Assembly (NCBI RefSeq): GCF_023701745.1
Contig: NZ_JAJOZB010000001.1
Span: 1,550,001-1,614,000 of the forward strand
Direction: 5' to 3'
DNA from: Streptomyces sp. RKAG293
GTDB lineage: Bacteria; Actinomycetota; Actinomycetes; Streptomycetales; Streptomycetaceae
Length of the DNA stretch: 64,000 nt
Shown in pieces: positions 4,690 to 29,638 of this stretch. The translations under genes were made by a program, and so were the position numbers. A model generated the notes under the pieces. It did not search any database. It was not told the origin of the DNA and was given only the letters and a program-made list of their open reading frames with translations. Each line of letters opens with the position of its first letter. The first letter of the stretch is position 1.

Positions 4690-4793
4690 GTGCACGCACC
4701 TCCTCGTGGGACGCGGAACGCTGGGTTCCCCAGCGTGTCACGCCGGTCGCCGCGGATCGCAGAGGATCGCTCCCCAGCGGCCGTGTGGCTCGT

Positions 4794-7751
4794 TCACCGC
4801 ATCTGACGGCGCACCAGCTCATGGAACATGCCGCCGGTGTCGGCGAGGAGCTCCGCGGGCGGGCCCTGCTGGAGGACCCGGCCGTCCGACATGACGATCA
4901 CGCGGTCGGCGTCCATGACGGTGGACAGCCGGTGCGCGATGACGACACGCGTCGAGCGCAGCTTGCGGGTGCTCTCGGTCACGACGCGCTGGGTCTCGTT
5001 GTCGAGGGCGCTGGTGGCCTCGTCGAAGAACAGGATGCGCGGGTGGCGGATCAGGGCCTGGGCGATCATCAGACGCTGCCGCTGGCCGCCGGAGACGGTG
5101 CCGCCGCCGTCGGAGAGGACGGTGTGCATGCCCATCGGCATGCCCTTGATGTCCTCGGTCAGCCCCGCCATCGCGGCGGCCTCCCAGGCCTCTTCCAGGG
5201 AGAACGTCTCGGAACCGCAGATGCAGTCCAGGATCGAGCCGGTGAACGGCTGCGCGTTCTGCAGGACGACCCCGCACTGGCGCCGCACGGCCGCCGGGTC
5301 GAGGGCCGTCAGGTCCTGACCGTCGTAGAGCACGCTGCCGGACACCGGCCGGTCGAAGCCGATGAGCAGCCGGAGCAGGGTCGACTTGCCGCAGCCGCTG
5401 GCTCCGACGATGGCGACGAACTCGCCCGGCAGGATCCGGAACGACACGTTGTCGAGCACCAGCGGCGCGTCGTCGGCGTACCGGAACGACAGCTGCTCGA
5501 CCTCGATCTCGCCGGACAGCACGCCCGGCTGTGTGGTGCCGCCGCCGACCTCGGGCACCTCGTCGAGCAGCGGTTTGATCTGCTCGAACAGCGGCAGGAC
5601 GGAGACCGCGGAGATGAGTGCGCCGGTCAGCTGGGTCACCGACGTCAGCAGCATCGTCACCGCGGTGTTGAAGGTGAGGAAGCTGCTGGCCGACAGGGTC
5701 CCGCGGGCCGGTCCTGCGAGCAGCATGAACATGATGAGGGTGCAGAGCGGCAGATAGACCGCGTTGACGACCGTGATCAGGTTCTTGATCCGGCCCACCC
5801 GCTGCTGCAGTTCGCGGCTGCGCGCGAACTCGCGGGCCCAGGAGGCGTAGGCGAAGCTCTCCGCCGCGGCGACGCGCAGTTTGGGCAGTCCGCGCAGCGT
5901 CTGGAACGCCTGGTTGTTGAGCTTGTTGCCGAGCACGATCAGACGGCGCTGCCAGCGCAGTTGCCACAGCCCCAGGGTGAGGAACACCGCGCCGATCACG
6001 GTGAGCATCGCCAGCGCCAGCAGGGCCAGCGTGGGGCTGTACCAGAGCAGCAGGGCGAGGTTCACCACACCGACGGTGCCCGCCTGCACGGCCACCGAGC
6101 TGATGCCGGACAGGACGCGGCGGATGGCGCTGATGCCCATGGCCGCGCTGGCCAGCTCTCCGGTGGAGCGCCCGGCGAAGAACTTCGTCGGCAGGCGCAG
6201 CAGCCGGTCCCAGACGGCCGGTTGGAGCGTGGACTCGATGCGACCTTCCATGCGCAGGATGGAGATGTTCTCCAGCAGCATGAAGGCGGCCGAGACGATG
6301 GTGGTGGCCACGATCGCCAGCGAGGTCTGGACGATGAGGCTGTTCTCGGCGTTCGGTACGTAGACCCCGAGAACCTGACCCGTCGCGATGGGCACCAGCG
6401 CGCCGAGGCCGACCGCGACGAGGCCGCCCAGGATCAGGTTGCGCAGGTCCGCCCGGGTGCCGCGCAGACTGAAGCGGAGCAACCGCCAGACGGCTATGGG
6501 CTGGTCGGGCAGCGGCCGGTAGAACATGACGGCGCGGGGCTGGAACGCGTCCGCGGCCGCGCCCGCACCCCCGCCCCTGCTCCCGATGCGCGTCCGCTCG
6601 CCGGTGACCGGATCCACCGCCTCGTATCCGCCGCGGCGCCACAGCAGCGCTACCGGCGCGCCCGTTCCGGCCCGGTGGCCCAGCAGGGGGCCGGAGTCCT
6701 CCCGCCACCAGCGGCCGTCGAGTCTGACCGTGCGGGTGCGGAAGCCCGAACTCACCGCGATGCGCTCGACCGGGCTCGACCGGCCGTTCGACGAGCCGCC
6801 GTCCACGGGTGCCGAGACGGTGATCCCGGCCGCGTCGGCGACTCTGCGGCAGGCGGCGAGTGTGGCATCGTCGGTGCCGTCGGCCGGGTGGGACGGGGTC
6901 TTCCCTCCCGGCCTGTCGATGGAGGCCAGCAGCGCCTGGTCCGCCTGCGCGCGCACCGTCCGGCCGGCCTTGATGCCGGCCGCCGTCCGGTCCTCATGGG
7001 CGCGCTCGACGCGTTCGATCCAGCGGTCCAGCGCGAACAGCAGCCGGGACTGCTGATTGACCACCCGCTGCCACATCGCACCGTCGATGAGCAGATCGGC
7101 GGCCGCCTCGCTGCTGAACGCGGCGCCGTACCGCACACTTCCGGGGGCCACCGGCATCCACAGGATGTTGTCGTCGGCCGCTTCGTACTCCGCGGCCGGC
7201 TGCGCCGTTCCCGGTCCATGGCCCGGCTGACCGTCGTGGGGGGCCTCGAACAGGACGCGCAGACTGCGCCCGACCCCGCGGGCGAACGCGTCCTCCAGCG
7301 GGCTCAGGGGCGCTTCGTAGCCGCCGTACGACTGCTGGTCCCCGTAGCCGTCGTCACCGCCGTACCCGCCTCCGCCGTACCCACCGGGCTCGCCGTACTC
7401 GCCGTACCCGGGCCCGAACAGTTCCCGCAGCTGGATCCGGCGCAGTTCGCACCCCTGCAGGGGCCGCCCGACGAGGGTGTGGCGCGGGCCTTCCGCCGGT
7501 CCGAGCACCAGGGTTCCCGTTTCGAGCCGGCCGAGGAAGTGCCAGTGCCCCTGGTTTCCGGAGTCGACCGCGAACAGGTCCATCGCCCCGCCCACCACCA
7601 GCCACAGCACATGGGGCCCCTCCAGGCTCATGCTGCGGGTCCCGGCGCAGTCGACGGGCTGTCCCAGGCCGCCGAGGGCTCCCACGACCACATCGCCGGG
7701 CACGGCGCCCGGCACGGCGTCGGTGACCACGGGGTGCTGGACGGATGTCAT
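4794..7751 (-). CDS. NHLM-type peptide export ABC transporter, permease/ATPase without peptidase
   Basis: A 985-residue ABC half-transporter. The first ~400 residues form a soluble accessory region typical of the second NHLM exporter subunit (NHLM family, compare TIGR03797), including a Gly/Tyr-rich low-complexity tract. A six-helix membrane domain follows, then an ATPase domain with Walker A GASGCGKST, signature VSGGQRQRL and Walker B ILFFDEATSALD. It lacks a C39 peptidase, so it probably pairs with the peptidase-bearing subunit encoded next to it. Its ATG lies 1 nt after the stop of that gene, implying translational coupling. It should export a double-glycine-leader peptide such as the one at 10970-11206. 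Confidence 0.92.
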   Translation of the reverse strand: MTSVQHPVVTDAVPGAVPGDVVVGALGGLGQPVDCAGTRSMSLEGPHVLWLVVGGAMDLFAVDSGNQGHWHFLGRLETGTLVLGPAEGPRHTLVGRPLQGCELRRIQLRELFGPGYGEYGEPGGYGGGGYGGDDGYGDQQSYGGYEAPLSPLEDAFARGVGRSLRVLFEAPHDGQPGHGPGTAQPAAEYEAADDNILWMPVAPGSVRYGAAFSSEAAADLLIDGAMWQRVVNQQSRLLFALDRWIERVERAHEDRTAAGIKAGRTVRAQADQALLASIDRPGGKTPSHPADGTDDATLAACRRVADAAGITVSAPVDGGSSNGRSSPVERIAVSSGFRTRTVRLDGRWWREDSGPLLGHRAGTGAPVALLWRRGGYEAVDPVTGERTRIGSRGGGAGAAADAFQPRAVMFYRPLPDQPIAVWRLLRFSLRGTRADLRNLILGGLVAVGLGALVPIATGQVLGVYVPNAENSLIVQTSLAIVATTIVSAAFMLLENISILRMEGRIESTLQPAVWDRLLRLPTKFFAGRSTGELASAAMGISAIRRVLSGISSVAVQAGTVGVVNLALLLWYSPTLALLALAMLTVIGAVFLTLGLWQLRWQRRLIVLGNKLNNQAFQTLRGLPKLRVAAAESFAYASWAREFARSRELQQRVGRIKNLITVVNAVYLPLCTLIMFMLLAGPARGTLSASSFLTFNTAVTMLLTSVTQLTGALISAVSVLPLFEQIKPLLDEVPEVGGGTTQPGVLSGEIEVEQLSFRYADDAPLVLDNVSFRILPGEFVAIVGASGCGKSTLLRLLIGFDRPVSGSVLYDGQDLTALDPAAVRRQCGVVLQNAQPFTGSILDCICGSETFSLEEAWEAAAMAGLTEDIKGMPMGMHTVLSDGGGTVSGGQRQRLMIAQALIRHPRILFFDEATSALDNETQRVVTESTRKLRSTRVVIAHRLSTVMDADRVIVMSDGRVLQQGPPAELLADTGGMFHELVRRQMR

Positions 7752-7752
7752 C

Positions 7753-10017
7753 TCAGTGCTCCCTGACGAGCTCGGCGTACGGCCCGCCGGCCGCCACCAG
7801 GTCCTCGTGCCGCCCGCGTTCCACGACGGTGCCGTGGTCGAGCACGACGATCTCGTCGCTGTCGCGCACCGTGCTGAGCCGGTGCGCGATCACGACGCAG
7901 GCACAGCCCCGCCGCCGCAGATTGTCGATGATCACCTGCTCGGTCTCGGCGTCCAGGGCGCTGGTCACCTCGTCGAGGACCAGGACGCTGGGCCGGCGGA
8001 CCAGCGCTCTGGCGATCTCCAGTCGCTGCCGCTGGCCGCCGGAGAAGTTGCGGCCGTCCTGCTCGACCCGGCTGTGGATGCCGCCGGGACGCCGGGCGAC
8101 CGTGTCATGGATGGCGGCGTCCTTGAGCGCGGCGATGACGTCGTCGTCGGGTATCGACGGATCCCACAGCGCGACGTTGTCCCGGACGGTGCCCTCGAAG
8201 AGGAAGACGTCCTGATCGACGAAGGAGACCGAGGCGGACAGCGCGCTGCGGGAGATCTCGTCGAGCCGCTGCCCGTCGATGCGGATCGAGCCCTCCCACG
8301 GGTTGTAGAGACCCGAGATCAGCCGGGACACCGTGGACTTGCCGCTGCCGGAGCCGCCGACCAGCGCCACCTGCCGGCCGGGGCCGACCGACAGGGAGAA
8401 GCCGGTGAGCAGCGGTCTGTCGAGCGGGCTGTAGCCGAAGGTGACGTTCTCCAGCGTCACGTGGCCCTTGAGCCTGCGGGTGCTCGCGGCCGGCTCGCTG
8501 CGGGAGTACAGCCCGTCCACCGGGAAGCTCTCGACGTCCTTGAGCCGGGCCACGTCGGCCGCGAAGTCCTGGATCCGGCCGGCCACCCCGTTGAGCCGGG
8601 TGACCGGTGCGGTGAAGCTGGTCACCAGCGCCTGGAAGGCGACGAGCAGGCCGATGGAGATATGGCCCTCCACGGCCCGCAGCCCCCCGATCCACAGGAT
8701 CAGCGCGCTGTTGAGAGCCGCGAGGGTGGGGGCGACGACGGCCAGTACCGCACTGGGCACGCCGAGCCGCTGCTGCCCGTCCAGGGTCGTGGCGTGCTGG
8801 CCGGCCCAGCGGCGGAAGTAGCCGTTCTCGGCGCCGGTCGCCTTCATCGTCTCGATGAGCTGGAGCCCGCCGTACGAGGTGTTGGTCAGCCGGGCGCTGT
8901 CGGCCCGCAGCTTCTGCGTACCGGTGGCACGGATCCGTACCACCACGCGCATCGCCGCGACGTTGAGCAGCGCGATCAGCACGCCGACGACCGTCAGTTG
9001 CGGATCGTAGGTCCACAGCAGGACCGCGTAGAGCACCACGACCACGGCATCCACCCCGGCGGCGGCGAGGTCCCTGGCCAGGGTCTCGGCCACCGTGTCG
9101 TTGGACTGCAGGCGCTGGACGAGGTCGGCCGGGTTGCGCTGGGCGAAGAACGTGACGGGCAGCCGGAGCAGATGCCGCATGAACCGGGCGCTGCCGAAGG
9201 TGGACGAGATGATGCGGCCGCGCAGCAGATTCGCCTGCTGCACAGCGGTCAGCACGGCGGTCAGCACGACCATCGCGGCCATCGACCCGAAGAGCACCGG
9301 CAGCAGCGACGTCTGGTTGCCGAAGAGGAACAGATCGATGTACGTCCGGCTGAGGGCCGGCGCCGAAGCGCCGACGACGACGAGCAGGAAGCTGGCGATC
9401 AGTGCTGCCGCCATCGTGCCCGTGGTGCCGCGCAGCCGGGCCGGCAGGGCGCTCATCACCCCGGGCTTGCGGCCGCCGCGGCGGAACCCGCCGCCGGGCT
9501 CGAAGGTCAGCACGACGCCGGTGAAGCTCGAGTCGAACTCCTCCCACGACACGAAACGCCGGCCCCGGGCCGGATCGTTGAGGTGGATCCCCTTGCGGCC
9601 GAAGCGCCGTCCCATCCCGTCGAGGACGACGAAGTGGTTGAACTCCCAGAACAGGACGGCCGGCGCCCGGACCTCCGCGAGGGCGGCGGGCTCCATCTGC
9701 ATGCCCTTGGCGTCCAGACCGTATCTGCGGGCCGCCTTCAGCACGTTGCTGGCCCGGGAGCCGTCGCGGGACACACCGCAGGCGATGCGGAGTTCTTCGA
9801 GGGGGACGTGCCGGCCGTGGTGGCCGAGCACCATCGCGAGCGAGGCGGCACCGCACTCCACGGCTTCCATCTGCAGAACGGTGGGGCTGCGGACGGTCTT
9901 CTGCTTCTTCGCCTTCCCCGGCTTCCTCCGCTTCCGCGGATTCGATGTCGGCGTCTGCGTCGGCGCCGGCGCGTGCCGCCCGCGGCCTGCCGGGGTCGGG
10001 CGGTGCTGCGCGCTCAC
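7753..10017 (-). CDS. NHLM-type C39 peptidase/permease/ATPase exporter
   Basis: A 754-residue fused exporter (NHLM family, compare TIGR03796). The N-terminal C39 cysteine peptidase has its catalytic Cys in QMEAVEC, His in NHFVV and Asp in NDPARG. A membrane domain follows, then an ATPase with Walker A GGSGSGKST, signature FSGGQRQRL and Walker B VLVLDEVTSALD. It should cut double-glycine leaders at the cytoplasmic face and export the core peptide. The GTG start at 10017 overlaps the TGA of the HlyD gene by 4 nt, which decides the start; a longer open frame upstream is only the HlyD gene read out of frame. A basic tail (KRRKPGKAKKQK) precedes the peptidase. Confidence 0.93.
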   Translation of the reverse strand: MSAQHRPTPAGRGRHAPAPTQTPTSNPRKRRKPGKAKKQKTVRSPTVLQMEAVECGAASLAMVLGHHGRHVPLEELRIACGVSRDGSRASNVLKAARRYGLDAKGMQMEPAALAEVRAPAVLFWEFNHFVVLDGMGRRFGRKGIHLNDPARGRRFVSWEEFDSSFTGVVLTFEPGGGFRRGGRKPGVMSALPARLRGTTGTMAAALIASFLLVVVGASAPALSRTYIDLFLFGNQTSLLPVLFGSMAAMVVLTAVLTAVQQANLLRGRIISSTFGSARFMRHLLRLPVTFFAQRNPADLVQRLQSNDTVAETLARDLAAAGVDAVVVVLYAVLLWTYDPQLTVVGVLIALLNVAAMRVVVRIRATGTQKLRADSARLTNTSYGGLQLIETMKATGAENGYFRRWAGQHATTLDGQQRLGVPSAVLAVVAPTLAALNSALILWIGGLRAVEGHISIGLLVAFQALVTSFTAPVTRLNGVAGRIQDFAADVARLKDVESFPVDGLYSRSEPAASTRRLKGHVTLENVTFGYSPLDRPLLTGFSLSVGPGRQVALVGGSGSGKSTVSRLISGLYNPWEGSIRIDGQRLDEISRSALSASVSFVDQDVFLFEGTVRDNVALWDPSIPDDDVIAALKDAAIHDTVARRPGGIHSRVEQDGRNFSGGQRQRLEIARALVRRPSVLVLDEVTSALDAETEQVIIDNLRRRGCACVVIAHRLSTVRDSDEIVVLDHGTVVERGRHEDLVAAGGPYAELVREH

Positions 10018-10820
10018 GGAAGGACCCAATCGATCGGATGCTGTGCGGTCAGGTGGACGGCGCCGCCGACCAGCGTCGTGGAATCGATCGGGTACGGCGG
10101 TCCGTGCGCCGACGACCAGCTGAAGCCGGACGTGGTGCCGGCCGACCGTTCCAGGGAGACCATGACCGCCACCGGCTGGCCCTGCGCCGAGAACTGCTCG
10201 CCCAGCTGACGGTTCCCGAGGAAATCGCTGATCTGCTGCCGGGTCTCGGGATTCCGGCCGATCGCCATGACGCGGCCCCGCAGCACACCGAACCGCTGCG
10301 CCGGCACCGACTGGACGGTCAGCTCCACCGAGGCGCCCACCGGGATCGTCGACGCGCTGCCGCCGGGCGCGTACAACACCGCCACCAGTGGGTCGCCGGG
10401 CTTGTCCATGCGCTCCACCGTCGCCAGGTCCGCGCCGGTGGCGACGACGGCGCCGATCTTGGCCGTGATCGCGGTCACCCGGCCCGCGGCCACCGTGCGA
10501 ACGGTCTCGGCCCTCCGGTCCGTGCGTACGGTCAGCAGCGGAGCGCCCGCGGGCAGCGTGTCGCCCTCTTTGGCGAGGGTCGCGGTGATCTGGCCGGCGA
10601 CCGGACTCTGCAGAAGGTAACTGCCTTCCGCATGCGTCAGGATTCCGGGTGCGTTCAGCTTGGACGACACCGTGCCCGTCACCGCCCAGAAGCATCCGAC
10701 GGCCATGACGACCGCTGTGACGGTCAGCGCGAGCCAGCCCTGCGGCCGGGCGAGAAGCACCGGTACGTCGAGGTCTTCAGGCGATTGCAGCTTGGACAGC
10801 GCCTTTTGGCGGAACTGCAC
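10014..10820 (-). CDS. HlyD-family secretion adaptor of NHLM system
   Basis: A 268-residue membrane fusion protein (compare TIGR03794, NHLM secretion protein). It has a short cytoplasmic N-terminus, one membrane helix near residues 30-52 and a biotinyl/lipoyl-like hairpin region (ILTHAEGSYLLQSPVAGQIT). It should bridge the ABC exporter and the outside. GTG start with AAGGA 8-9 nt upstream. It is the first transport gene after the precursor and is separated from it by a strong hairpin. It is shorter than Gram-negative HlyD proteins, as expected for an actinobacterium. Confidence 0.9.
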   Translation of the reverse strand: MQFRQKALSKLQSPEDLDVPVLLARPQGWLALTVTAVVMAVGCFWAVTGTVSSKLNAPGILTHAEGSYLLQSPVAGQITATLAKEGDTLPAGAPLLTVRTDRRAETVRTVAAGRVTAITAKIGAVVATGADLATVERMDKPGDPLVAVLYAPGGSASTIPVGASVELTVQSVPAQRFGVLRGRVMAIGRNPETRQQISDFLGNRQLGEQFSAQGQPVAVMVSLERSAGTTSGFSWSSAHGPPYPIDSTTLVGGAVHLTAQHPIDWVLP

Positions 10821-10856
10821 GGAAGTATTCCTTCAACTGCATTCGGGTGCGGCATT

Positions 10857-10891
10857 CATAGGCCCCGGAACGAGGGGTTCCGGGGCCTATG
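10857..10891 (-). terminator. Strong hairpin between precursor and export genes (likely attenuator)
   Basis: Two perfectly complementary 15-nt arms (CATAGGCCCCGGAAC / GTTCCGGGGCCTATG) flank a 5-nt loop. The hairpin lies 79 bp after the precursor stop and 37 bp before the HlyD start, within a same-direction gene run. Placement suggests partial termination or RNA stabilisation that keeps precursor mRNA more abundant than exporter mRNA. There is no U-run. Confidence 0.75.
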
Positions 10892-10969
10892 GCCGACCTT
10901 ACGATGCGTCAGAAGCACCGCTGGGCCGGGTCATGCCGACGCTATGGCGTCTCATGCAGAACCTGACGG

Positions 10970-11206
10970 TCAGAGACCGGCGGCCAGACCGTTGACCTGC
11001 GCCGGGAGGAGACCGGTGACCGTCGAGAGCGGCAGCGAGACCGGCAGGGCCGACTCGACGGTGCCCACGATGTCGCCGACCGACAGACCGTCGACGCCGA
11101 CACCGACGCCGACACCGCCGGAGACGTTGTCCAGGTCGCTGTCGGAAATTTCGCGGGTCTCGACCTGGGGGTGAAGTCGTTGCGCATGACTTGCGGTTCC
11201 CTTCAT
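10970..11206 (-). CDS. Double-glycine leader peptide precursor (NHLM exporter substrate)
   Basis: A 78-residue open frame whose leader ends in ISDSDLDNVSGG, the classic acidic Leu-x-x-Val-x-Gly-Gly cleavage site for C39 exporters. The predicted 47-residue core begins VGVGVGV and is hydrophobic, rich in Val, Leu, Gly, Ser and Thr, and has no Cys. It sits directly upstream of HlyD and two NHLM exporter genes. The start is uncertain. ATG 11206 has no ribosome binding site, whereas AAGGGA precedes a second ATG (11187) by 10 nt in another frame. That frame reads MRNDFTP and would join the leader frame if the run of five G at 11167-11171 had one more base. Either a start mis-assignment or a one-base error is possible. 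Confidence 0.8.
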   Translation of the reverse strand: MKGTASHAQRLHPQVETREISDSDLDNVSGGVGVGVGVDGLSVGDIVGTVESALPVSLPLSTVTGLLPAQVNGLAAGL

Positions 11207-11532
11207 AGCTGTGGGGGGTTCATGAATAGCGTCGGCCGGTTCGGCGGAAAGCCGGTACGGCCGGTTCAACGGTCGTCCGATGCCCGAATGATTCGGAAAC
11301 CCGATTCGCAACTCCCGTATGTCGCAAGACACAACCACGTCAACGCGCTGCCGGGCCACCCTGCCCTTCACAGTGTTTCGGTCGGCGTTTCGGTACCGCG
11401 AGACGCTCACCGGCGGCATTGCCCACCGAATGCCGACGAATTCTTCACATGCTGGAAACGGGCCATTCTCACGGGCCGGTCCCTTCGTCGATCCTGATCG
11501 GACATATCCGCGTTTAGGGTTCGGCGCCCGTC
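11207..11532. promoter_or_regulatory. Upstream region of the peptide operon
   Basis: About 330 bp with lower G+C than the neighbours between the LAL gene terminator and the precursor gene. Reading frames here are unsupported. It should hold the promoter of the minus-strand peptide operon; I cannot place -35/-10 boxes with confidence. Confidence 0.4.
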
Positions 11533-11558
11533 CGGCCCGGCGGGATCCCGCCGGGCCG
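11533..11558 (-). terminator. Perfect palindromic terminator after the LAL gene
   Basis: A 26-bp perfect palindrome with 13-nt arms (CGGCCCGGCGGGA / TCCCGCCGGGCCG) and no spacer. It lies about 70 bp downstream of the minus-strand LAL regulator stop, insulating the peptide operon from it. Confidence 0.7.
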
Positions 11559-11628
11559 CTGTGCGTTTTCCGCGTGCGCGATGTGCAGGATCACCGGGGG
11601 CGGCGGGGTGTCACGAATGGTCGCCGGT

Positions 11629-14451
11629 TCACCGGGAATCGGCGAGTGCCGTGGGCATGCCCTGCAGGACCGCGGGAAGCCGGTCGCGTCCGCCGATGCC
11701 GAGTTTCCGGTAGGCGTTGGTGAGGTGGATCTCGACGGTGCGCTGCCCCACCGACAGGACTTCGGCGAGCTCCCGGTTGGACTTGCCTTCGGCGGCGAGC
11801 ATGGCGGTGCGCAGTTCGGCGGCCGTCAGCGCGGCGACTCCGTCCGTGTGCGAGGACTTCGGCGGGCGGCCGCCCGATGCGGACAGCTCGATACGGGAAC
11901 GGGTCGCCAGATCCGCGCAGCCGCACTCCTCCGCCAGGTCGAGCGCGGCGCGCAGCGCCCGCCTGGCCGGCACCGGACGCTTGTCGCGGCTGAGGGCCGT
12001 GCCGTGCTCGGCCAGGGACCGTGCCAGCTCGAACCGGTCGGCGGAGCGCCGCAGAACGGAGACGGACTCCTCCAGCGCGGCCAGCCCCTGGGGTCCGCCG
12101 GCAGCGGCCCCCAGCGTCCGGAGCGCGACGCCCAGCGGGCCCGGCGCACCCCATCGACGGGCCAGTTCGACCGCTTCCGCGGCCTTGCGGCGCGCCCCGG
12201 CGGTCTCACCGAGCGCCAGCAGGGCCGCCGAGCTCTCGGCCTGCCAGGGTGCGACGGCGGGATTCGCCACGTTCCAGGACGGCAGCCGGCGGCCGGCGGC
12301 CAGCAGGTCCCGGAGCCCCTCGGCCGGGTGTCCCGCGGCGGCGCGCAGCCGGCCCCGGGCGAGCAACAGGGCGGTGCCGCCCCAGGTCTTCGGCAGGTCG
12401 CCGCACAGGTCCGACCGTTCGACCAGGCTCTCCGCCTCGTCGTACTCGCCCAGGTCGACCAGGATCTCCACGCACCGGGCCAGGAGTTCCACCGCCGCAC
12501 CCGTCCGCCGTGGTGCCCCGCAGCCGATGAGCATCCCGAACGCGATCCGGGCGTCCTCGGCCGCGGCGGGCATCCGGCCGAGCCGGTGGGCGACGACACC
12601 GCGCAGCGACCGGGCCGCGGCGATGGCCGGCCGGTGCTGCCAGCGTTCGGCATGACCGACCATCGCGTCGCAGAACTCGTGGGCCTCCTCGGCGCGGCCG
12701 GCCTGGGCCAGCACCAGGACGCTGCGCAGGATGGGCCGCATCGCGTCGGGGGTGAGGGGCAGGACCATCAACGCCTGCTGGGCGAGGGCCACGGCGCGGG
12801 ACCTGGACCTGCCCGCCCACCCGGTCCGCAGGGCGAGCAGGCTCAGATAGCGCCCGTCGGCCGCCCCGCCCTGGGGTGCCGGCCTGGGCAGCCGGTGCAG
12901 CTGTCTGGCCGCCGCCTCCGCGGTCGCCTCGCAGTCGAACTGCAACTCCGCCGAGCAGAGCGCCTGGCCGGTGGAGACGGGTCCCGTCCGCGTGCGGACG
13001 AGTTCGACGGCGGTCTCGTGGTGTCCTGTCATGGCGAGCAGCTCCGCCAGCTCCCGCACCACACCAGGCCGCCCCTCCGGCTCCGCAGGATGGGAGGAGA
13101 CCGTGGTCAGATGGCGGATCGCCGCGCCGAAGTCCAGATACCCCTCGGCCCGGCCCAGCGCCCGCAGCAGCGGTATGCGCTCCTCGTCCGGAACCGGCTC
13201 GCCCAGCGCCCTGGTCAGGTAGGCGACGGCCATGTCGGGTTCGCCCCGGCCGAGCGCGGATTCGGCGGCGTCGCGCAGCACGGCGACCACCCATGGGTCG
13301 GCCGGCGCTGGGGTGGCCATGAGCTGTTCGACCACCCGGTCCTGCGGAGCGCCGGTGTCCCGCAGGATCCGGGCCGCCGCGCCGCGCAGGGTCCGCAGTT
13401 CCGCGAACGGCAGGTGCTGGATCATCGTGGCGCGCAGCAGCGGTTGCGCGAAGTTCAGGAACCGGTCCGCCACGCGCAGCAGTCCCGCCCGCCCGAGCGC
13501 CGCCGTCACCTCCATGACCACCGGCGGCTCGACACCGCAGACGGCGGCGACGCGGCCGGGGTCCGCATCGTCGCCGAGGACGGCGACGGCTCGGGCGACG
13601 GCGAGCGCGTACGGCGATATTCGGCGCAGCCGGGCGTGCAGCCGGGAGGCGAGCCGGGGTACGGCGATATCTCCGAGCACGGCGGCCGGGCCGGCGGTGG
13701 GCGTGACCGCCCGGTCCCTCAGCACGGCGGTCAGCTCGGTCACGCACAGCGGGTTGCCGCCTGTTTCCCGCAGGAACGAGGCGACGAACGACGCGTCCGG
13801 CGCGGCGGCGAGGGCGCGTTCGATGAGCGTTGCCGCGGCCGGGGCGGCGAGAGCCGCCGGGTGCAGCTCCACCGTGCTGACGGCCAGCAGCTCGTCGAGG
13901 GCGGCGGCATCCGTGCAGGGCTCACCAGGGCACACCGTCAGCAGCACCGCGATCCGGGCATGTTCGACACGTTGCGGCAGGGTGCTCAGCCAGCGCAGCG
14001 ACTGCGGGTCCAGCCACTGCAGGTCGTCCACCGCCACGAGCACCGGAGCCTGGGACGCCAGATGCGCGAGTCCGCGGTGCAGGGCGTAGAGCTCGGTCAG
14101 CGACGCCTCGCCCGCGGGCCTGGTGACCGGCAGCTCGCGGGCCCGGGACAGGGAGTCGGCGCAGGTGACCAGGCCGGCTTCCACGAGGTCCGGCAGAACG
14201 GGCTCGAACAGCCTGCTCACCAGTCCGAAGGGCAGGTCGCGTTCGGCCGAACTGCCCCGGGCCGTCAGCACGGTGAAGCCGCTTCGCCGGGCGCGGCGGA
14301 CCGCGTCGTCGAGCAGCGCCGTCTTCCCCGTCCCGGCACCGGCGCTGACCACCACTACGCCGCCGGCCTCCGCGGCCGCTCCGGTCAGCATCGCCTCGAC
14401 CTCGGCGATCTCCGTGTCGCGGCCGACCAGACCTGACGTGGCCGTGTTCAT
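11629..14451 (-). CDS. LAL-family LuxR regulator with AAA ATPase domain
   Basis: A 940-residue large ATP-binding LuxR-type regulator. Residues ~1-170 hold an AAA/NACHT-like ATPase: GRDTEIAEVEAML start, Walker A SAGAGTGKTALL and Walker B VLVAVDDLQWLD. A long alpha-helical TPR-like middle follows, then a C-terminal LuxR helix-turn-helix (NRELAEVLSVGQRTVEIHL). Such proteins usually activate adjacent secondary-metabolite operons. Here the obvious candidate is the NHLM peptide operon 0.4 kb downstream in the same orientation, although a terminator separates them. The ATG at 14451 has only a weak AGGAAA sequence upstream. Confidence 0.92.
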   Translation of the reverse strand: MNTATSGLVGRDTEIAEVEAMLTGAAAEAGGVVVVSAGAGTGKTALLDDAVRRARRSGFTVLTARGSSAERDLPFGLVSRLFEPVLPDLVEAGLVTCADSLSRARELPVTRPAGEASLTELYALHRGLAHLASQAPVLVAVDDLQWLDPQSLRWLSTLPQRVEHARIAVLLTVCPGEPCTDAAALDELLAVSTVELHPAALAAPAAATLIERALAAAPDASFVASFLRETGGNPLCVTELTAVLRDRAVTPTAGPAAVLGDIAVPRLASRLHARLRRISPYALAVARAVAVLGDDADPGRVAAVCGVEPPVVMEVTAALGRAGLLRVADRFLNFAQPLLRATMIQHLPFAELRTLRGAAARILRDTGAPQDRVVEQLMATPAPADPWVVAVLRDAAESALGRGEPDMAVAYLTRALGEPVPDEERIPLLRALGRAEGYLDFGAAIRHLTTVSSHPAEPEGRPGVVRELAELLAMTGHHETAVELVRTRTGPVSTGQALCSAELQFDCEATAEAAARQLHRLPRPAPQGGAADGRYLSLLALRTGWAGRSRSRAVALAQQALMVLPLTPDAMRPILRSVLVLAQAGRAEEAHEFCDAMVGHAERWQHRPAIAAARSLRGVVAHRLGRMPAAAEDARIAFGMLIGCGAPRRTGAAVELLARCVEILVDLGEYDEAESLVERSDLCGDLPKTWGGTALLLARGRLRAAAGHPAEGLRDLLAAGRRLPSWNVANPAVAPWQAESSAALLALGETAGARRKAAEAVELARRWGAPGPLGVALRTLGAAAGGPQGLAALEESVSVLRRSADRFELARSLAEHGTALSRDKRPVPARRALRAALDLAEECGCADLATRSRIELSASGGRPPKSSHTDGVAALTAAELRTAMLAAEGKSNRELAEVLSVGQRTVEIHLTNAYRKLGIGGRDRLPAVLQGMPTALADSR

Positions 14452-22005: not shown

Positions 22006-23262
22006 GTGCACAAGATCGCGTTCCTGCGCTCCGTCGACATCCAGCGCGCCGACCCCTACATCCAGCGGGCCGTCCGCGAACTGACGGACGACGGCGTCGA
22101 ATCCCGGCTCTTCCACACCCACGGCCACTGCGGCCCGGCCGACTTCCCCGCCGGGGGTGAGCCCCTCGACCCCGCGGTGACACCGCTGGAACTGGCCGAC
22201 GCCGTGAGCGCGTGGGGAGCGGACGCCGCCGTTTCCGTATCGCTGCCGTGCGAGAACGCGCTGCGCGACGCGACCGCCAAAGCGTTCCTCGACGCACGCG
22301 GCATCCCCACCGTGATGACACCGCTGGCGGCCACCTGGCTGCTCTGCGACAAGTGGGAGACGAAGCAGGCCCTCATCACCGCGGGACTGGATGTCGCCAG
22401 GGGGATCCGGGCGGACAGCGATCTGACGGCCGGGCGCGGCCTGCCCGTGCCCGCCTACCGGCAGAGCCTGCTCGTCGCCGCCGGTGAGATCGGCTACCCG
22501 CTGCTGTCCAAACCGCTGTGGGACTCCACCAGCATGGGCATCCGCTTCCTTCCGGACCGCGCCGCGCTCGACGCCTATCTCGCCGACCCGCCCCCCGTCA
22601 GCGCTGTGCTGGAGGAGTGTCTGACCGGTGACCTGTGCTCCGTCGACATCGTCGGGGCGCCAGGGAACTACAGCGTCCTGCCGTTGTGCTGGACCGGACA
22701 GGCCGGCGGCGGAGCCGCGTTCACCTTCGCCGACCTGCGCTGGTGCGGACCGCGCCCGCAGGCGGACGCCGACTTCGCCCCGGTCGCCGAGCGTCTCGTC
22801 GCGCTGTGCGAGAGCCTCGGCGTGTACGGCTCGGTCAACGTCGACATGATCCACGTCAACGGCCGTTACGTCGTCCTGGAGATCAATCCGCGCATCGGCG
22901 GAGCCACCACCCTGTCCTGCGCCGCCTCCGGCACCAACACCTTCGCGACACTCGCCGACATGGCACGCGGCCGGTACCCGGACGCCGCGCGACCCGACAC
23001 CCGGCGCAAGCGCTGGGGGATCGAGTTCCTGGCCGACCGGCCCGTAGGCCAGGCGGCGGCCGAGCTGCGCGACCGCCTCGGTCTGGTCACCGCGCACGAG
23101 CTGGTCATCGACGGCAACAGCCACGGCGACATCGTCACCTTCACCTGTGAGGAAGGTGACGAGCAGCGCACCGTCAAGGAACTCGACACGATCAACGCCC
23201 ACTCGGGCATCCTCGCCCCCGTCATGATGGACAAGGTCCGCGCTCTGCTGTGCGGCCCGTGA
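22006..23262 (+). CDS. ATP-grasp ligase (peptide or amino acid ligase)
   Basis: A 418-residue ATP-grasp protein. The N-terminal pre-ATP-grasp domain spans ~1-110. The ATP-binding lid includes YPLLSKPLWDSTSMGI, and the metal-binding motif VLEINPRIGG lies near residue 290. Such enzymes join a carboxylate and an amine through an acyl-phosphate, for example in dipeptide formation. The start is GTG with GAGGTG upstream inside the preceding short frame. It overlaps the MFS gene by 4 nt. With the exporter and FemAB-like gene it forms a compact three-gene operon that probably makes and exports a small peptide-like metabolite. Confidence 0.87.
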   Translation: MHKIAFLRSVDIQRADPYIQRAVRELTDDGVESRLFHTHGHCGPADFPAGGEPLDPAVTPLELADAVSAWGADAAVSVSLPCENALRDATAKAFLDARGIPTVMTPLAATWLLCDKWETKQALITAGLDVARGIRADSDLTAGRGLPVPAYRQSLLVAAGEIGYPLLSKPLWDSTSMGIRFLPDRAALDAYLADPPPVSAVLEECLTGDLCSVDIVGAPGNYSVLPLCWTGQAGGGAAFTFADLRWCGPRPQADADFAPVAERLVALCESLGVYGSVNVDMIHVNGRYVVLEINPRIGGATTLSCAASGTNTFATLADMARGRYPDAARPDTRRKRWGIEFLADRPVGQAAAELRDRLGLVTAHELVIDGNSHGDIVTFTCEEGDEQRTVKELDTINAHSGILAPVMMDKVRALLCGP

Positions 23263-28216: not shown

Positions 28217-29638
28217 ATGTCGATCGAAGCCCGTCCGGAATCCGCGCCCGCTCAAGGAAACAGCCCGTCCCATACGAGCCTTGATACGGCTGCTGCCCGG
28301 AATCTGGCGACCACCACCAAGTCCGCACCTCAGATGGCGGGAATCTCCTCCCGCTGGCTGCTGCGCATGCTGCCCTGGGTAGAAGTCTCGGCCGGCACCT
28401 ACCGGGTCAACCGCCGGCTGACCTACTCCGTGGGCGACGGCAAGGTGACCTTCGTCAAAACCGGGTCACACGTGCGGGTCGTCCCCGCCGAACTCGGCGA
28501 ACTCGCCCTGCTGCGCTCCTTCGAGGACACCGCGGTCCTCACCGCGCTCGCCGACCGCTTCACCCAGCGCGAGTTCGCCCCCGGCGAGCTCCTGGCCGAA
28601 GCCGGCCAGCCCGTCGACACCCTCTACCTCCTCGCCCACGGCAAGGTCGAAAAGCTCAGCGAGGGCGAATTCGGCGAGCAGAATCGTCTCGGCGTCCTCG
28701 CCGACGGCGCCCACTTCGGCGAACAGGGCCTGCTCGACCCGGAAACACCCTGGGACTTCACCGCCAAAGCCGCCACCACCACCACCGTGCTGGCCCTGTC
28801 CCGGCAGGACTTCCAGACCCTCGCCGACCAGTCCCCCGCCCTGCGCGCCCACATCGAGGCCTACCGCGCCATCCCCCGCCAACGGGTCAACAAGCGCGGC
28901 GAAGCCGCCATCGAACTCGCCTCCGGCCACAAGGGCGAAGCAGACCTGCCGTCCACGTTCGTCGACTACGAAGTCGCCCCCCGCGAATACGAACTGAGCG
29001 TCGCCCAGACCGTCCTGCGCGTCCACAGCCGCGTCGCTGACCTCTACAACGAACCGATGAACCAGATCGAGCAACAGCTCAAACTCACCATCGAAGCCCT
29101 GCGCGAACGCCAGGAACACGAACTCATCAACAACCGTGAGTTCGGACTGCTGCACGCCGCCGACTACGACCAGCGCATCCAGCCGCACGCCGGCCCCCCG
29201 CTCCCCGACGACCTCGACGAACTCATCAGCCGCCGCCGCGGCACCCGCTTCCTGCTCGCCCACCCCCGCACCATCGCCGCCATCGGCCGCGAATGGACCC
29301 GCAAAGGCCTCTATCCGGGCAACGTCGAAGTCGACGGCAGCAGCGTTCTCGCCTGGCGCGGCGTGCCCATCCTCAGTTGCGGAAAGATCCCGATCAGTGA
29401 GGCCCGCACCAGCTCGATCATCGCGGTGCGTACCGGCGAGGACAACCAGGGCGTCATCGGCCTGCGCCAGACCGGCATCCCCGACGAGTACGAGCCCGGA
29501 CTGAACGTGCGGTTCATGGGGCTGAGCGAGAAGGCCATCATCAGCTACCTCGTCAGCGCCTACTACTCCGCCGCCGTACTCGTCCCCGACGCCCTCGGCA
29601 TCCTGGAGAACGTCAACATCGCCAACTGGCGCGACTGA
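28217..29638 (+). CDS. Family 2B encapsulin shell protein with cNMP-binding domain
   Basis: A 473-residue HK97-fold shell protein of the EshA-like family. An N-terminal arm (~1-90) is followed by an inserted cyclic-nucleotide-binding domain (~100-215, with [20 protein letters not shown] and [10 protein letters not shown]), then the HK97 core ([11 protein letters not shown] onward; [37 protein letters not shown]). Published work shows that such shells enclose 2-methylisoborneol synthase. Cargo and shell genes are divergent neighbours here, the same pairing. AAAGGA lies 8 nt before the ATG. Many databases label it a Crp-type regulator, but it has no helix-turn-helix. Confidence 0.93.

Follow-up and report, generated by a model that had tools for sequence, protein, structure and literature searches.

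The closest described counterpart of the locus reported here is SCO0753-0756 of Streptomyces coelicolor, which we take to be the 'bacteriocin' cluster of that species. In the passages of PMC6629963 that deal with it, Sco0753 is a 77-residue hydrophobic Cys-free peptide encoded upstream of the type I-like secretion operon sco0754-0756, in a gene order kept in many Streptomyces. The same passages present sco0753 as the top over-expressed gene in a dispersed sco5282-D125G strain (log2 of 6.3, 8.1 by qRT-PCR), one among many changed genes, and its expression as nearly shut off in the null mutant; the authors, who also mention SapB, suggested that hyphal surfaces might be affected. In excerpts of other papers, the S. 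coelicolor cluster is labelled bacteriocin (PMC5733086 and PMC6414726), sco0756 figures among up-regulated predicted efflux genes (PMC5882110), and a 'type A2 lantipeptide' is reported in a RiPP-like region that also contains a Peptidase_C39 gene (PMC13047742). Six leader strings of the family had no match in the literature searched, in which the gene names sco0753 to sco0756 turned up in four papers, and in the portions of it that bear on the family no isolated product was found.

The window analyzed here is a stretch of 64,000 nucleotides from Streptomyces sp. RKAG293 (contig NZ_JAJOZB010000001.1, positions 1,550,001 to 1,614,000), in which a precursor peptide gene and three export genes lie together on the minus strand. 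The precursor open reading frame (ORF), as first drawn, runs from 11206 to 10970 (78 aa). Its translation confirmed what an earlier note made from the letters alone had described, namely, a double-glycine leader (...PQVETREISDSDLDNVSGG, ending DLDNVSGG) followed by a 47-residue core, VGVGVGVDGLSVGDIVGTVESALPVSLPLSTVTGLLPAQVNGLAAGL, which opens with VGVGVGV and holds no Cys; after the predicted C39 cut at Gly-Gly, core and stop codon would occupy 10970 to 11113. The three NHLM export genes that the same note had placed behind the precursor are indeed there, adjacent to each other and each over its curated NCBIfam cut-off: a HlyD-like secretion protein (10014 to 10820; TIGR03794, 175.2 bits against a cut-off of 156.2), a C39 peptidase/ABC exporter whose start codon is uncertain (about 7753 to 10053; TIGR03796, 1011.8 bits against 853, and Pfam Peptidase_C39), and a second ABC exporter subunit (4794 to 7751; TIGR03797, 890.2 bits against 709), in which the Pfam search found no peptidase domain. 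The C39 domain of the window copy carries the Q, C, H, and D that such an active site should have, as do all 69 aligned domains. Upstream of the precursor, a large LuxR-type (AAA-TPR-LuxR) regulator was recognized by Pfam at 11629 to 14451, also on the minus strand. Copies at least 59% identical adjoin five other congeneric precursors (L037, L039, where it is in two pieces, L040, L041, and L043), and the regulator was matched in only 6 other loci among 71; it is a candidate local regulator of the cassette. Weaker LuxR-type matches (28 to 33%) were seen in L007, L153, and L154.

Small Cys-free hydrophobic peptide gene directly before HlyD-like and two ABC genes: in this respect, the window cassette appears to be of the sco0753-sco0756 type, the match being made by published description, gene order, and the syntenic locus L127, not by sequence. 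The next-numbered gene, sco0757, is called exopolyphosphatase, and L127 carries a Ppx/GppA gene downstream of its cassette; Sco0753 is described as 77 aa, whereas L127 reads 71 aa. A frame difference at the 5' end, discussed below, is a feature of the window copy. The exporter belongs to the same families, TIGR03794, TIGR03796, and TIGR03797, as the NHLM/NHLP export systems set out in the consulted part of Haft et al. (2010, PMC2887384), from which the window precursor differs in having neither a nitrile-hydratase-like leader nor a linked modifying enzyme. The database-named 'type A2 lantipeptide' is possibly the same kind of gene, compared here with the excerpt of PMC13047742 by description only. 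With the class II double-glycine bacteriocins, the family shares the leader consensus and the C39 cutting exporter, and it differs from them in having no conserved candidate immunity gene and a core that is Lys-free and almost Arg-free.

The start of the precursor as first drawn is doubtful. At the ATG at 11206, Shine-Dalgarno pairing is almost nil (-0.8 kcal/mol), whereas an ATG 19 nt further inside, at 11187, is preceded by an AAGGGAA ribosome site with a duplex of -9.3 kcal/mol. By DNA alignment, the codon at 11185 to 11187 is homologous to the start of the relatives, whose precursors, that of the nearest one included (L037, in genome G007, 86% identical in the peptide alignment), open with MRNDFTPQVETRE... 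or similar. The first 12 residues as drawn (MKGTASHAQRLH) are not family-like, and from PQVETRE onward, leader and core are. Between the ATG at 11187 and the leader sits a C-run (11167 to 11171, a G-run on the plus strand), which is one base shorter than in L037, by an indel or an assembly error, so that the frame from the family start to leader and core is lost. Hence, 11206 is probably the wrong start and 11187 the true family start, and the first 12 leader residues as drawn are probably an artefact of the frame difference. Within the genes compared between the window and L037, this is the sole frame-breaking indel, the six remaining ones all being multiples of three; two more 1-base gaps lie outside genes as called (4696 and 14611), one of them directly preceding the called start of a permease gene at 4695.

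The 5' end of the window precursor may be disrupted, or there may be a one-base error in the assembly. That the window copy is a pseudogene making nothing in this genome is a real possibility, somewhat short of an even chance, and would be compatible with any function of the family. The family start is out of frame, the ATG at 11206 is without a ribosome site, the only frame-breaking indel among the genes compared falls in the precursor, and core dN exceeds dS against L037, on 6 changes only. However, core, stem-loop, and export genes are all intact, and the frame difference falls within a C-run, where assembly errors are common. Given this 5' frame difference, the window ORF as drawn is unsafe to use as a precursor without resequencing.

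Leader and core statistics were drawn from 69 distinct exporter-linked precursors (72 before duplicates were removed; L118 was dropped because its start was mis-called). A double-glycine leader consensus has a hydrophobic residue at -12, an acidic one at -8, Leu at -7, Val or Ile at -4, and Gly-Gly. The 69 precursors, each linked to a C39 exporter, follow it with I/L at -12, D/E at -8 (Gln in two of them), L at -7, V/I at -4, and G at -2 and -1, and T at -15, E at -13, D at -10, and D at -6 are invariant. The cores are repetitive and vary in length from 39 to 62 aa; their 3444 residues comprise Gly (19.9%), Val (19.6%), Leu (13.2%), Thr (12.5%), Ala (10.6%), and Ser (8.0%), with no Lys, no Cys, 5 Arg, and 10 His. 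For comparison, the proportions in 13 ORFs from the first 26 kb of the window are 1.1% Cys, 1.2% Lys, and 8.6% Arg. Core dN was lower than dS in 10 of 12 close pairs, nearly equal to it in three of those ten, the exceptions being window/L037 (6 changes in all) and L048/L054, a pattern that would fit selection acting on the gene while its core varies.

No Pfam or NCBIfam model exceeded its cut-off on the window peptide, which scored 11.9 bits against 50.9 for the NHLP leader model TIGR03793 (weakly matched by one of 30 relatives), and nothing exceeded its NCBIfam cut-off on the 30 relatives, with a best E of 0.0058. That value belongs to the model for the functional-amyloid chaperone FapA, weakly matched by five of the 30, which is probably a matter of low complexity. 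An AlphaFold model built on 67 sequences (mean pLDDT of 60.7, pTM of 0.21) was rejected as proof of structure.

Precursor and exporter travel together. With the window peptide as the query (E of 0.001), 22 of 35 congeneric genomes matched, and these are exactly the 22 with TIGR03796 over its cut-off. With a 30-row alignment as the query (E of 1e-4), the precursor was found in 232 of 394 genomes of the family, distributed over 8 of 17 genera. A sample taken across the class gave matches in 30 of 394 genomes, all from the window's own family, and none was found outside it in the sampled genomes at the sensitivity used. In the 394 family genomes, precursor and exporter were both present in 229, the precursor only in 3, the exporter only in 18, and neither in 144, exporter presence being scored at a threshold of our own (about E 1e-225, 247 genomes; the curated cut-off gives 245). 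The 18 exporter-only genomes (G035, G038, G053, G063, G069, G077, and 12 others) may hold a diverged precursor.

The search for the same leader beside NHLM genes in other genomes, which the earlier note had proposed as a check, found HlyD directly behind the precursor in 21 of 28 congeneric places (of the other seven, L041 is cut off by a contig edge and six are orphans), and outside the genus, 39 of the 40 loci fetched read precursor-HlyD-C39ABC-ABC2 in order, L102 being an orphan. Nine further loci (L163 to L171) have the usual cassette with a diverged precursor, and contig ends truncate two of the nine. L153 (G033) and L154 (G026) hold a second, divergent NHLM trio with a C39 ABC 58 to 59% identical, beside which the family model detects no precursor.

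The remark that no lanthionine synthetase, cyclodehydratase, or radical SAM gene lies nearby was borne out: when the genome (9.27 Mb, 3 contigs) was searched, the window (1,550,001 to 1,614,000) held no LANC_like, YcaO, or Radical_SAM match. Elsewhere in the genome there are 4 LANC_like matches, none within 1 Mb of the cassette, 5 YcaO matches, and 21 above-cut-off radical-SAM matches. Across the family, the flanks were compared by setting all open frames of eight reference loci against 71 loci (about 9 kb upstream, downstream often only about 3 kb), since a simple ORF caller had missed genes (its HlyD cluster held 32 loci). The exporter genes recurred in about 60 other loci, and frames in the flanks matching up to 61 loci were hits on the cassette ABC genes or antisense frames of the cassette. 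The commonest true neighbor, a trypsin-like protease with an alpha-lytic prodomain, was found in 15 other loci of the 71, no flank gene recurred in the flanks of more than 15, and simpler ORF clustering agrees, its next clusters holding 14 and 13 loci. Thus, the stretches fetched show no conserved gene for modification or immunity linked to the cassette. The reading of the earlier note, a leader peptide with an NHLM exporter and without a linked modifying enzyme, has good support and proves to be a trait of the family, not a peculiarity of this locus. The absence of Cys from all 69 cores rules out lanthionine, sactionine, and thiazole chemistry for the core. A lanthipeptide was rejected, as the 69 distinct cores are without Cys and no lanthionine synthetase or cyclase is linked to the window cassette; the name 'type A2 lantipeptide' would be wrong for this family.

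A further element accompanies the precursor. In the gap between precursor and HlyD gene, a 15-bp stem-loop lies on the minus strand at 10857 to 10891, recognized by folding and by covariation in the family. When 72 cassette loci were folded against 30 shuffles each, z was below -2 in 62, and an unbroken stem of at least 9 bp (G-U allowed) was found in 55 of the 72. A CCGGA-type stem lies behind 61 of 80 loci scanned, of only 6 to 7 bp in four. Of these 61 stems, 52 were aligned (four short ones, one at a contig end, and four near-duplicate or weak ones being dropped): 90.8% of cells are paired, both sides vary in 11 of 16 pairs, and covariation is 0.335, compared with 0.170 in shuffles and no more than 0.117 when the alignment is slid, counts that lean towards structure because the rows were picked for forming stems. 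The stem is also found behind the orphans L048, L053, L054, and L060, so that it accompanies the precursor and not the exporter. That the motif is unique to the peptide family was rejected, since the exact pattern also occurs away from peptides: it has 18 sites in the 35 genomes, 8 just behind a precursor and 10 elsewhere, against 12 sites for a reversed control, and around a second copy in the window's own genome, no leader-like peptide was found in the surrounding 10 kb. In view of these sites, the stem-loop looks terminator-like in general. An Rfam search of window positions 10700 to 11640 returned nothing of note, the best E being 0.92 and all matches below gathering scores. We read the stem-loop as a partial terminator or a 3' end stem, which would probably hold the precursor mRNA above the exporter mRNA.

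Six congeneric precursors, L048, L049, L053, L054, L060, and L063, are orphans with no HlyD gene behind them. As they share the family leader, the exporter of their genome may serve them in trans. Eight other loci (L155 to L162) encode leader-sharing peptides with quite different cores and no NHLM genes nearby; those of L155, L158, and L160 have one Cys each. In the genome of RKAG293 itself, a second double-glycine peptide (L175, 7108 to 7290, at about 7.865 Mb of contig C1) has a core, ISVSSLLSAACPVSSFSSVSN, with one Cys and a second C39 exporter downstream; by eye, the gene between peptide and exporter looks like a cytochrome P450, and upstream lies a very long ORF whose beginning resembles a polyketide synthase. 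Elsewhere in the window, an SrpI-like encapsulin shell protein of the family 2A type, which bears a cyclic-nucleotide-binding domain, is encoded at 28217 to 29638 (plus strand), and a cytochrome P450 (19681 to 21111, minus strand) and an ATP-grasp enzyme (22006 to 23262, plus strand) lie near a transporter and a methyltransferase, in what is possibly another biosynthetic cluster.

We propose, with about half of our belief, that the cassette of four genes makes a C39-cut, NHLM-exported, and probably unmodified surface-active peptide of Streptomyces. The ribosome would make a precursor of about 65 to 85 residues, as the conservation of its frame suggests; the C39 domain would cut it behind Gly-Gly, to which consensus and active site point; and the two NHLM ABC proteins, together with the HlyD-like one, would export the core of 39 to 62 residues, in keeping with the strict linkage and co-occurrence. 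The core would be untouched by Cys-dependent chemistry and most likely left unmodified altogether. Rich in Gly, Val, Leu, Thr, and Ala, without Lys and Cys and nearly without Arg, it would then act at the hyphal surface, the least certain step, where a surface-active or coating core may alter how hyphae stick together. Judged from the sequences, cutting and export are likely, and so is an unmodified core; the surface role, which rests on composition and one published expression study, is our best guess, at about an even chance or less.

The earlier note had offered an unmodified bacteriocin, a surface-active peptide or signal, and a RiPP modified by enzymes encoded elsewhere. Typical bacteriocins are cationic, and a core family whose 3444 residues include only 5 Arg and not a single Lys is unlike them; moreover, no conserved extra gene fit for immunity emerged from the 71 loci, and the cassette is present in over half of the species sampled across the whole family. 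An unmodified class II-type bacteriocin, exported by the NHLM system to disrupt the membranes of competitors, is thus weakened and in our judgment unlikely, while its anatomy, a double-glycine leader with a C39 exporter, remains the classical one. Weak matches to the leader model TIGR01847 in 12 of 30 relatives (best E of 0.026) and the name given to the S. coelicolor cluster in the excerpts of PMC5733086 and PMC6414726 speak for it as well. That the core or a fragment of it serves as a secreted signal which the producer itself senses, perhaps via the adjoining LuxR-type regulator, would accord with the presence of this regulator next to the window copy and at five congeneric loci and with the leader-sharing orphan peptides of several genomes, but the regulator recurs in so few of the 71 loci, and cores of 39 to 62 aa are so long and repetitive, that we consider it improbable.

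A RiPP whose Ser/Thr residues or backbone are modified by an enzyme encoded elsewhere, before export, loses its Cys-dependent variants, as none of the 69 distinct cores has Cys, and the 71 loci reveal no additional gene that accompanies the cassette. Candidate enzymes do exist elsewhere in the genome (the LANC_like, YcaO, and radical-SAM matches given above), Ser and Thr together make up about a fifth of the core residues, and polytheonamide-type cores resemble such low-complexity Gly/Val cores; we rate this reading as rather unlikely, less so than the signal. The reading as a surface-active peptide agrees with the suggestion made by the Sco0753 authors in the relevant passages of PMC6629963, and we retain it as the preferred reading.

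SapB is a lanthipeptide that contains Cys, and chaplins carry Sec signals; to our knowledge, neither uses an NHLM exporter. The likeness of the present family to them, hydrophobicity and a surface role, is proposed by analogy only. A tentative extension, which we think more doubtful than the surface role itself, would be a third morphogenetic surface peptide of Streptomyces beside SapB and the chaplins, unmodified, free of Lys and Cys, loosening or coating vegetative hyphae, and exported by a dedicated double-ABC NHLM system instead of Sec, with the orphans sharing the exporter.

The main point, a cassette of the Sco0753 type, appears to be already in print for S. coelicolor in the excerpts cited above; within the literature searched, what our analysis adds is the census, the rule of cores free of Lys and Cys, the covarying stem-loop, and the leader-sharing orphans. 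A unit of peptide and exporter is thereby documented for over half of the genomes sampled in the family (232 of 394), with no curated family model over its cut-off, and the name 'lantipeptide' would mislead for this peptide family. If the core acts at the hyphal surface, the cassette would bear on pellet versus dispersed growth of Streptomyces.
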